From positions 1-64,000 of the forward strand of contig NZ_MKKE01000001.1 in NCBI RefSeq assembly GCF_001942305.1: a stretch of DNA of 64,000 nucleotides. Direction: 5' to 3'. The notes under the pieces were generated by a model. It was given only the letters and a program-made list of their open reading frames with translations, was not told the origin of the DNA and did not search any database. The translations under genes and the position numbers were made by a program. The stretch's first letter is position 1. Every line of letters starts with the position of its first letter. Shown here in pieces: positions 12,148 to 15,067 of the stretch. The stretch comes from Saccharomonospora sp. CUA-673. Its GTDB lineage: Bacteria; Actinomycetota; Actinomycetes; Mycobacteriales; Pseudonocardiaceae.

Positions 12148-12582
12148 TCAGCCGCGGACGTGCCGGGCGCAGGCGGCGACGATGGCTTCGGCGGCATCGA
12201 TCGCCTCGGTGACGTCCTGCGAGGTGGCGGTCGGACGGTCGACGGCGGGGTACTCGGTGGCGTTGCGCACCTGGCGCATCCACTCGAAGTCCTCGAGCGC
12301 CTCGTCGGCGACGAACACCGCGGCCGCGGTTCCGGTGTTGCGGTGGGCGCCGCCGATGGGCCGCACCCGCAGTCCCTCCGCGGCCAGCACCGCGCCGAGT
12401 GCCTTGCGCGCCCCGTCGTAGGCGGCGGTGAAGGCCATCGCGTGGTCGTCGGTGCCGGCGAGCACGCGCGCGGTGTGCACGTGCCGTTCGGCCGTGTCGA
12501 TGACGCCCAGTGCGTGCTCCCGGTTCACCTCGACGCGGTCGAGGCGGTTCTGCTTGAGCATCCGGGCGATCGGATCAGTCAC
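12148..12582 (-). CDS. HEPN-domain protein paired with an MNT nucleotidyltransferase
   Basis: A 144-residue all-helical protein with HEPN character (NREHALGVIDTAERHVHTARVLAG, TAAYDGARKALGAVLAAEG, EDFEWMRQVRNATEYP), close in style to the SAV_6107-type HEPN group. Its start overlaps the MNT stop by eight bases, so the two are one operon. Classical HepT toxins carry an R-x4-6-H RNase motif; here the equivalent site reads RNATEY with no histidine, so RNase activity is doubtful. It may be a modified toxin, or the substrate that the MNT partner nucleotidylates. Confidence 0.7.
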   Translation of the reverse strand: MTDPIARMLKQNRLDRVEVNREHALGVIDTAERHVHTARVLAGTDDHAMAFTAAYDGARKALGAVLAAEGLRVRPIGGAHRNTGTAAAVFVADEALEDFEWMRQVRNATEYPAVDRPTATSQDVTEAIDAAEAIVAACARHVRG

Positions 12583-13195
12583 GGCTGTCCCCGTTTCCGG
12601 CCGGGTCGAGTACCTCGCCGGTCCGGACGTCGACGACGGGACGCGAGCGCACGGTCGTGACGAACGGGTCCGGGTCCGGCGTGTCCCAGTCCTCGCGTGC
12701 GAGCCGCGTGATGTTGACGGGGAGGTCGAGGCGGTCGCCGACGTCGCCAGCGATGCGGGTCAGCGTCCGCCGGGGCGCGTCGCCGACGACGAGCACGTCG
12801 AGGTCGTGGGGAAACGCGCCGCTCTCGCCCGCGCGGCGCGCCGCCCACGAGCCGTAGATCAGGACGCGCTCGGCGCCGTCGACACCGTCGAATGCCTCGC
12901 GCAGCATGGGAATCGGTCCGTAGGTAGCGGCGATGAGGTCGCGCATCAACGCGAACAGCGGATGGTCCTCGTTCGCCTGCACGAGACGGTTACGCCCCTC
13001 GTGCCGGTCACGTAGGACGTCGTTGTCGATGAGTCGTCCGATCTCGCGGTGGACGACCGGCCCGCTCACGCCGGTACGTCGTCCGAGCTCGGCCAGCGAG
13101 AACTCCCGGTCGGGGTGGCCGAGCGTCTCGGCCAGCAGCGCCCCGACCGCGTCCGACCGCACGAACGGCGTCAGCTGCGGAGCCAGAGTCTTCAC
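12575..13195 (-). CDS. Winged-helix plus MNT nucleotidyltransferase (antitoxin-type)
   Basis: A 206-residue fusion. Residues about 13-70 form a winged helix (FSLAELGRRTGVSGPVVHREIGRLIDNDVLR), and residues about 105-200 form a minimal nucleotidyltransferase with GS at 115-116 and the D-x-D pair at 131/133 in PHDLDVLVVGD. MNT proteins of MNT/HEPN systems neutralise the HEPN toxin by transferring AMP; here the enzyme also carries its own DNA-binding domain. The GTG at 13195 has no clear ribosome site and may be leaderless. A perfect palindrome lies seven bases upstream, suggesting autoregulation. Confidence 0.78.
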   Translation of the reverse strand: MKTLAPQLTPFVRSDAVGALLAETLGHPDREFSLAELGRRTGVSGPVVHREIGRLIDNDVLRDRHEGRNRLVQANEDHPLFALMRDLIAATYGPIPMLREAFDGVDGAERVLIYGSWAARRAGESGAFPHDLDVLVVGDAPRRTLTRIAGDVGDRLDLPVNITRLAREDWDTPDPDPFVTTVRSRPVVDVRTGEVLDPAGNGDSRD

Positions 13196-13242: not shown

Positions 13243-13803
13243 TCAGTCGCCCTTCGCTGCCCTGAAGCGGGCCTTCTTCTGCTTGTTGCCGCAGGTGTTC
13301 ATGTCGCACCACCGCCGGCTTCGGCTGCGGCTGGTGTCGAAGAACGCGGCGCGACATGTCGGCGATGCGCACAGCGCCAACCGCCCTTCACGTTCGCCGG
13401 CGAGCATGTCGATCGCATCGGCGGCGATGACACCGAGCGCGTCCGCCACGGCGGCGCCGTCCGCACCGAGGCGCCACTCCCGTCGACCCTCGGATGTCAA
13501 CATCGCGGCAGCCCGCCCCTGGCCACTGCAGTCGTTGATCACCGCGACGGCCTCCGGCGGGAGTTCCTCATCGGATGCGGCCGCGGTCGCCGCGGCGTGG
13601 ATCGACTCCCGCAGCTGCTTCGCGCGCTCGAGTTCGGCCTCGGTGCATCCGTCGACGGTCAGGCCGTGGATGTCGAGCCAGTCGACAAGTCGCCGCGGCA
13701 CGGGAATCCGCTCGACCTGCGCGCCCTGACGTTCGGTCAACGTCGCCGTGAAGCTCGTCGCCAGCTCGCTGCCGAGGCGGAACTCGGGGAACTCAGCACC
13801 CAT
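13243..13803 (-). CDS. CGNR zinc-finger (ABATE-type) regulator
   Basis: A 186-residue protein. The C-terminal CGNR zinc finger is complete: CASPTCRAAFFDTSRS with the first cysteine pair, then RRWCDMNTCGNKQKKARFR with the second pair and the CGN(K) signature. The N-terminal region is the helical ABATE-type domain thought to bind a small ligand. It is divergent from an epoxide hydrolase gene, and two near-identical 19-base inverted repeats fill the shared promoter, one touching its own start codon. I infer that it represses itself and the epoxide hydrolase until a substrate-like ligand appears. Confidence 0.85.
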   Translation of the reverse strand: MGAEFPEFRLGSELATSFTATLTERQGAQVERIPVPRRLVDWLDIHGLTVDGCTEAELERAKQLRESIHAAATAAASDEELPPEAVAVINDCSGQGRAAAMLTSEGRREWRLGADGAAVADALGVIAADAIDMLAGEREGRLALCASPTCRAAFFDTSRSRSRRWCDMNTCGNKQKKARFRAAKGD

Positions 13804-13804
13804 G

Positions 13805-13823
13805 GAACCAGCTTAGCCGGTTG
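13805..13823. promoter_or_regulatory. Operator copy 1 between CGNR regulator and epoxide hydrolase
   Basis: GAACCA-N7-CGGTTG with the core GCTTAGC: an inverted repeat whose outer bases differ by one position from the second copy. It starts two bases upstream of the CGNR start codon, so binding would block that gene directly. Confidence 0.65.
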
Positions 13824-13846
13824 CCATCACGCAACGCCGACTGGTA

Positions 13847-13865
13847 GAACCGTCTTAGCCGGTTC
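13847..13865. promoter_or_regulatory. Operator copy 2 between CGNR regulator and epoxide hydrolase
   Basis: GAACCG-N7-CGGTTC with perfect six-base arms and core TCTTAGC. It repeats copy 1 exactly 42 bases away, four helical turns, so two dimers would bind the same DNA face. The right arm also forms CCGGTT-CC-AACCGG with the following bases. Confidence 0.65.
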
Positions 13866-13895
13866 CAACCGGGTTCGACGTCGCGAGGAGGTCGC

Positions 13896-15067
13896 ATGTC
13901 CGCCCCCACCCTCGATGTGCAGGAGTTCCGCGCCCACGCCGTGGACGCCGACCTGGCCGATCTGTGGGCGCGCCTGGCCGCGACGCGACTGCCGGAGGCC
14001 GAGACGGTGCACCGCGCCGGGCCCGACCCGCGCCGCTGGGATCAGGGCGTTCCGCTGGCCGACCTCGTCGACGTCGTCGAGTACTGGCGGACCGACTACG
14101 ACTGGCGCGCGTGCGAGGATCGCCTCGACCGGATCGGCCAGTTCCGCACGACGATCGACGGCCTGGGCATCCATTTCCTGCACCGCCGCTCGCCCCGCGC
14201 GGACGCCGTTCCGCTGGTGCTGACGCACGGGTGGCCGAGCAGCGTCGCCGAGTTCGTGGATGTCGTCGACGAGCTGGCCGATCCGGCCGACGGCGCGGCG
14301 CCGGCGTTCACGTGGTGGTGCCGTCGCTGCCGGGTTTCGGATACAGCGACAAACCGTCGGCCACGGGTTGGGGCACGGAGCGGATCGCGGCGGCGTGGGT
14401 GGAACTGATGGCGCGCCTCGGTTACGCCGAGTTCGCCGCGCACGGCGGGGATTGGGGCGGCAATATCACGACGGTCCTCGGCGGCCGGTTCCCGGACCGC
14501 GTCCTCGGCATTCATTCGACGTACGCGGAGGCCCCGCCCGGGGTGACGACCGACGGTCTGACGGCGGCAGAACGCCGGTGGGCCGACGACACGGCCGATT
14601 TCTGGCTCAACCGCGCGGCGTACGCGAAACAGCAGGCGACCCGTCCGCAGACGATCGGCTATGCGCTCGTCGATTCGCCGGTGGGTCTGCTCGCGTGGAT
14701 TCTCGACAAGTTCGCGGAGTGGAGCGACACGGTCGACAGTCCATTCGAGACGATGTCGCGGGACCGCATCCTGGACACGGTGACGTTGTACTGGTTGACG
14801 CGCAGCGGTGCGTCGGAGGCGCGGATCTACTACGAGAGCCACAATTCGCTCGATCCGGATCTCCGGGTGGACGTCCCGGCGGCGATCACGACGTATCCGC
14901 GCAACATCGAGAAGTGCCCGCGTCCGTGGGCGCGGGAACGGTATCGGCAGATCGTGCGCTGGCGGGAGCCGGAATCCGGCGGCCACTTCCCAGCGCTCGA
15001 GCGACCCGAGTACTTCGTCCAGGACCTGCAGGCAGGCCTGTCGGCGGTCCTGGCCGCACGGGGCTGA
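13896..15067 (+). CDS. Epoxide hydrolase (alpha/beta-hydrolase with EHN domain), frame broken
   Basis: The EHN N-terminal domain (residues about 5-105, including FRAHAVDADLADLWARLA and YWRTDYDWRACEDRLDRI) leads into an alpha/beta-hydrolase with the oxyanion motif HGWPSS. The frame then changes near 14308, where TTCCACGTGG is expected but one C is missing. In the next frame it continues VVVPSLPGFGYSDKP, the nucleophile aspartate in HGGDWGG and the catalytic histidine in ESGGHFPALE. The repaired protein has about 390 residues, the family size. It would hydrolyse epoxides to diols in the cytosol and is probably controlled by the divergent CGNR regulator. Confidence 0.85.

Follow-up and report, generated by a model that had tools for sequence, protein, structure and literature searches.

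Two copies of one palindrome, op1 and op2, lie between a CGNR zinc-finger regulator gene and a divergently oriented epoxide hydrolase (EH) gene of Saccharomonospora sp. CUA-673. With a probability of roughly 85%, and on comparative sequence grounds, we read them as operators of the adjacent CGNR/ABATE protein, which would act as a ligand-controlled autorepressor of its own gene and of the EH gene. Dozens of soil bacteria retain the twin sites, precisely at the expected places of both promoters, and with related sites preceding many other CGNR regulators this gives the little-studied zinc-finger family a testable DNA-binding code. The window, the whole stretch of 64,000 nt that was analysed, contains both genes, and the features of the locus are collected in Table 1.

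Table 1. Genes, candidate operators and predicted promoter elements of the CGNR–EH locus (window coordinates)
Feature	Position	Strand	Supporting data
CGNR regulator gene	13243–13803	-	186 aa; Pfam ABATE 1.6e-22 and zf-CGNR 1.1e-16
op1, palindrome covering the predicted -10 box of CGNR and the upstream end of the predicted EH promoter	13805–13823		90/92 loci
Predicted CGNR -10 box TAAGCT, leaderless promoter, 6 nt before ATG	13810–13815	-	TAnnnT in 90/90 loci
Predicted EH -35 box TTGCCA, overlapping the op1 edge	13821–13826	+	TTGnnn 18 bp before TAGAAC in 64/66 loci with 42-bp spacing
Predicted EH extended -10 box TGGTAGAAC, overlapping op2	13842–13850	+	TAGAAC between the sites in 86/90 loci
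op2, palindrome covering the -10 box and start point (about 13857) predicted for EH	13847–13865		41–42 bp spacing in 83/90 loci
EH gene (EHN and alpha/beta hydrolase)	13896–15067	+	EHN 6.1e-35 and Abhydrolase_1 9e-13, one per frame

Within the window, op1 (GAACCAGCTTAGCCGGTTG) and op2 (GAACCGTCTTAGCCGGTTC) are spaced 42 bp apart. The initial annotation had described two 19-base copies 42 bases apart, and pattern searches of the window and of the whole genome confirmed them; the end coordinate that it gave, 13872, overshoots the end of op2 by 7 bases. The pattern GAACCNNCTTAGCCGGTT matches the window twice with 0 mismatches and, with up to 3 allowed, gives 4 strand-matches, all at op1 or op2, compared with 0.21 expected and with 100 shuffles none of which reached 4. 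When loci are compared, both sites prove to be one palindrome, AACCGnCTwAGnCGGTT, with cores at 13806–13822 and 13848–13864; in op2 the two 6-bp arms match each other perfectly in inverted orientation. The CTTAGC core noted earlier as common to both copies is present and, across loci, is the centre of this palindrome. The initial annotation also put the left copy two bases away from the start codon of the CGNR gene (13801–13803), a distance that is right for the core AACC..GGTT but not for the 19-mer with its outer G, which stands 1 base away.

A genome-wide search for the motif, proposed along with the initial annotation, found the exact pattern AACCNNCTWAGNNGGTT at op1 and op2 and nowhere else in the organism's own genome (5.42 Mb, 85 contigs). 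Allowing up to 2 mismatches to AACCNNCTTAGCCGGTT adds two places, one with a single mismatch that falls within an open reading frame and one with 2 mismatches. Near-matches elsewhere in this genome are taken as background because a reversed control pattern outscores the motif (16 matches versus 7). A wider regulon in the same genome was considered and rejected, since the near-matches do not rise above the control and the single-mismatch place is in a coding frame.

Conservation was assessed in 92 orthologous loci, made up of the window's own locus, 11 orthologues at 67–73% identity (from 60 genomes, the own genome included) and the best 80 of 496 relatives in named genomes; these are not all independent, as L008 and L065, and likewise L014 and L069, each appear to be one genome. 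The initial annotation had named absence of the motif upstream of orthologous pairs as grounds for refutation; the comparison was run and the motif is there, with op1 recognised in 90 of the 92 loci (64 exact to AACCNNCTWAGNNGGTT, 25 with 1 mismatch and 1 with 2). In a scan whose choice of op1 favoured candidates with a following start codon, that codon comes exactly 2 nt after the op1 core in all 90 loci, and the junction reads CCATG in 87. Op2 follows at 42 bp in 66 of these loci, at 41 bp in 17, at 40 bp in 2 and elsewhere in 5; all 83 copies at 41 or 42 bp are within 2 mismatches of AACCNNCTWAGNNGGTT, 62 of them exact. Where the sites are 42 bp apart (66 loci), pairwise identity averages 0.93 in op1 and 0.90 in op2, compared with 0.40 in the inner spacer. 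Streptomyces, Amycolatopsis, Nocardia, Nocardiopsis, Actinomadura and Gordonia are among the genera whose named genomes retain both sites, and EH is found at 87 of the 92 loci; for one of the remaining five, L108, the sequence stops 168 bases upstream of the CGNR gene.

A recognisable op1 is missing from two of the 92 loci, L009 and L076. In L009 the site is interrupted by other DNA: about 500 bases (about 2046–2560 on the reversed strand), transposase-like on reading, sit inside op1 and part the CGNR gene from op2 and EH. L076 is from the gammaproteobacterium Halomonas cupida, whose CGNR–EH pair lies in a 170-kb contig, with a regulator 70% identical to that of the window and with op2 kept; horizontal transfer of this pair is probable. 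Other arrangements are two sites 105 bp apart in L013 and, upstream of the CGNR gene of Stackebrandtia albiflava (L109), op1 together with two adjacent, mutually inverted variants of op2, AACTGTCTATGCCGGTT and AACCGGCATAGACAGTT.

The sites fall on the predicted promoters of both genes. In actinobacterial leaderless promoters, a TAnnnT -10 box is set so that transcription begins at the start codon. The arrangement TAnnnT-N6-start is present in 90/90 orthologous loci with op1 and, as a sequence criterion, corresponds to leaderless-promoter placement of the regulator gene. On the EH side, TGn precedes TAGAAC in 60 of the 66 loci with 42-bp spacing, and the predicted -10 box lacks the final T of TAnnnT. 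The 42-bp spacing itself amounts to about four helical turns.

Both neighbours had been named from the sequence of the window, and domain searches bore out each of them. The left-hand protein exceeds the Pfam curated cut-offs for ABATE (PF07336; 80.9 bits, cut-off 24.4) and zf-CGNR (PF11706; 60.7 bits, cut-off 24), and no helix-turn-helix family in Pfam matches it at E ≤ 0.001. Its treble-clef zinc finger has C145, C150, C166 and C171, invariant in 12/12 aligned orthologues; the motif reads CGNK in the window protein and CGNR in the remaining 11 of the 12. A sequence search of the PDB gave 3h0n (Jann_2411) as the sole relative at E ≤ 0.1, and the same entry is the only Foldseek match at E ≤ 0.001 (TM-score 0.42) to a predicted structure that is itself a weak model (12-row alignment, mean pLDDT 61.8) and serves as no more than a check of consistency. 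Relatives of the window protein at E ≤ 0.001 occur in 54 of the 60 genomes. In the same part of the window (12148–13195, minus strand), a HEPN-domain gene has a neighbouring gene with a weak, sub-cut-off MarR-like match and an apparent minimal nucleotidyltransferase motif, read by eye, so that the two resemble HEPN–MNT toxin–antitoxin pairs.

The right-hand gene encodes the EHN and alpha/beta hydrolase domains of an epoxide hydrolase and is frameshifted in the window. The break lies near 14306–14309, and the frames 13902–14309 and 14306–14884 match one uninterrupted relative; in 11/11 related genomes the orthologue has no internal stop, compared with two frames for the window copy. Both halves are still open and similar to relatives, which suggests either a recent frameshift or an assembly error, and EH may be non-functional in this genome if the frameshift is real. 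The motifs HGWP and GGDWG can be read in EH translations, that of the window included; we take the Asp of GGDWG to be the nucleophile and HGWP to be the oxyanion motif of EHN-class epoxide hydrolases. A close relative of the window enzyme (from L007) matches PDB entries 5f4z (2.3e-86) and 4i19 (8.4e-74). The window enzyme has the EHN domain and both motifs in common with these EHN-type (microsomal-like) epoxide hydrolases and differs from them in its frameshift.

The occurrence of the site follows that of the regulator. A CGNR orthologue (at least 67% identity), a close EH (at least 78%) and the exact motif are found in the same 12 of the 60 genomes, the own genome included, and are absent from the other 48; EH identity drops from at least 78% in the 12 to at most 56% in the rest. 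All of the exact-motif places listed for this sample are at the CGNR–EH locus. The regulatory link between regulator and EH through the sites, put forward in the initial annotation, thus gains support from the conserved sites at orthologous pairs and from this co-occurrence, although it remains a predicted one. EH was not found beside the regulator at four Streptomyces loci among the 92 (L040, L102, L105 and L112), at which the nearest sizeable upstream frames, judged from their translations, look like an oxidoreductase, a LysE-type exporter and two MFS-type transporters, those of L102 and L112 lying at some distance from the CGNR gene; at the plasmid locus L176 the upstream neighbour is annotated as thpD. 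Op1 is kept at the CGNR gene in all five of these EH-less loci, which indicates that the site belongs to the regulator; op2 is clean and exact in L105 only. In a sample of 296 genomes across the phylum, 10 have an exact match: three (the own genome, G055 and G228) at a CGNR–EH pair and seven as single matches elsewhere. These seven were set aside, as the flanks examined have no CGNR or EH match and their number is at control level (the reversed pattern occurs in 8 genomes).

We infer that the CGNR protein binds the sites, presumably with one dimer on each palindrome. On op1 it would cover its own leaderless -10 box and the EH -35 box and on op2 the EH -10 box and start point, and both genes would thereby be repressed; dimers lying on one face of the helix may cooperate in this. 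The protein would be released by a small molecule bound to its ABATE domain, for which an EH substrate or product is a plausible candidate; that the signal is an epoxide or a diol is our guess. Repression is preferred over activation because the sites overlap predicted -10 boxes. An activator, or a mixed activator and repressor, of EH would have op1 recruit polymerase and op2 repress or fine-tune, and two features speak for it: op1 abuts the predicted EH -35 box, a position open to activators, and the core promoter may be weak, given a predicted -10 box without its final T. This arrangement is unlikely, however, as op2, almost as conserved as op1, sits on the predicted EH -10 box and start, and op1 on the regulator's own predicted -10 box, each of them a repressor position.

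Because binding by the CGNR protein is a prediction, the sites could also be those of a different, unlinked regulator, with the CGNR gene merely one target. We hold this to be very improbable, considering that the exact motif is confined to the 12 orthologue-bearing genomes of the 60, with every listed place at the CGNR–EH locus, and that CGNR paralogues with other zinc fingers have different but related sites in similar places. Almost no weight falls on an origin as RNA-level or mobile-element features, such as a hairpin, an attenuator or a repeat element. The perfect arms of op2 would suit that origin, but op1 precedes both predicted transcription starts and would be transcribed from neither, its distance from the start codon is constant over 90 loci, and no spread of copies was seen in the genomes searched.

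Read as autorepression by the CGNR protein, the locus is organised like those of TetR/MarR-type divergent autorepressors, in which regulator and enzyme genes stand back to back, palindromic operators lie on both promoters and a ligand brings about release. The divergent genes, the palindromes on both predicted promoters and the probable release by ligand are common to the two. Unlike in TetR and MarR proteins, the DNA-binding part would be a zinc finger, and the operator is embedded in a predicted leaderless promoter, one of its half-sites separating the -10 box from the start codon. The closest structural precedent is Jann_2411 (PDB 3h0n), which has the same two-domain build, ABATE and zf-CGNR. 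On the strength of that one structure, CGNR/ABATE-type proteins were put forward as regulators in 2009, and PMC2954205 proposes that Jann_2411 is a dimer whose zinc finger probably binds DNA and which has a ligand yet to be named. The words operator, promoter, consensus, palindrom- and inverted repeat are absent from the main text of that paper; relative to that text, the present analysis adds a concrete site, a promoter layout and a partner gene. In the open-licence papers searched, we found no published operator for the CGNR/ABATE family, and among the papers listed PMC2954205 was the one that dealt with the family. Together, the conserved site, the promoter layout and the partner enzyme make binding, the inducer and the ABATE ligand testable. 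A hint of another context for CGNR proteins comes from an expression table in PMC9976334: the CGNR zinc finger gene bp3097, whose expression went up from 4 to 8 h of culture, is grouped there with sulfur-related genes, next to genes for molybdate transport.

Related inverted sites, in many cases at the start codon, also occur at distant CGNR genes. From relatives in the 60 genomes we took 78 distant loci (18, a further 58 in list order and two paralogues from the own genome); the zinc-finger pattern fitted 63 of them (15 were dropped), and 61 were scanned after the loss of 2 more with short upstream DNA. ACC-Nx-GGT was counted for x = 0–25 in these 61 loci and in 60 shuffles. The N9 spacing gave 43 matches in 27/61 loci, compared with a mean of 7.4 in shuffles (largest count at N9, 12), with 13 matches for AACC-N9-GGTT (0.1 in shuffles) and 16 for CACC-N9-GGTG (0.8); coding stretches of the distant loci, used as a control, gave 10 ACC-N9-GGT matches. 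A second peak lies at N17, with 28 matches (8 in the AACC form), above the highest count that the shuffles reached for any spacing (17); we made it a second operator class. N0 (27 matches) is likewise above this value, and N5 and N19 reach it with 17 each; these three were not made classes. One subfamily of eight loci carries twin TCACC-N9-GGTGA sites (one of them TTACC) 39–40 bp apart, with the inner site 1 nt before the start codon and 0.94 identical, compared with 0.50 for spacers of equal length. The arrangement TAnnnT-GGT-nnn-start occurs 11 times within the stretches scanned for the 63 distant loci, in all 11 cases in frame with the CGNR gene, whereas 100 shuffles average 0.02 loci with a maximum of 1. 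In L127, twin TGACC-N17-GGTCA sites upstream of the CGNR gene are another half-site variant of the long geometry.

Placed on a protein tree (FastTree, 26 distant rows), the operator class changes 4 times, whereas shuffling the labels 200 times never gave fewer than 8 changes (mean 12.5); the predicted class thus follows the phylogeny of the CGNR protein. Such a shift of the site pattern with protein subfamily offers a route to the DNA-recognition code of the family. Sorting the zinc-finger residues by operator class fixed no residue-to-base rule, because operator classes and clades largely coincide. In 35 of the 61 scanned distant loci there is no strict site of the three counted classes, so the rule is not established for every family member.

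Out of 11 plasmid loci picked by eye from 60 of 168 records, the eight annotated ones from Pseudomonadota were scanned between genes; a Caballeronia record (L185), which is without annotation at the locus, was left out. TAAC-Nx-GTTA peaks at N20 (5 matches) and N21 (7), with no more than 2 for each of the remaining spacings, in these eight loci, which are not all independent, some being close relatives (two are Pantoea records). Sites with N20 or N21 are present in 7 of the 8 and missing in L181 (Agrobacterium). The half-site resembles the actinobacterial one and the spacing is longer; the sites stand away from the start codon, and the CGNR genes here do not look leaderless.

Taken across Actinomycetota and Pseudomonadota, the CGNR/ABATE family probably shares one operator grammar of inverted (T)AACC/GGTT(A) half-sites, varied to TCACC or GAACC by subfamily. 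These would be set either in a short geometry, ACC-N9-GGT, or in one longer by 8–10 bases (ACC-N17-GGT in actinobacteria, TAAC-N20/21-GTTA in pseudomonads), and many actinobacterial members would have a half-site between their own leaderless -10 box and the start codon. Such a grammar, if true, would make the operators of an orphan family predictable from sequence, and we regard it as directly testable and as a more valuable result than the single locus. On three of the plasmids, two from Pantoea and one from Duffyella (L178, L179 and L184), CGNR/ABATE genes and alpha/beta hydrolase genes are transcribed divergently, and the DNA that separates them contains several GTAAC-N20/21-GTTAC sites.
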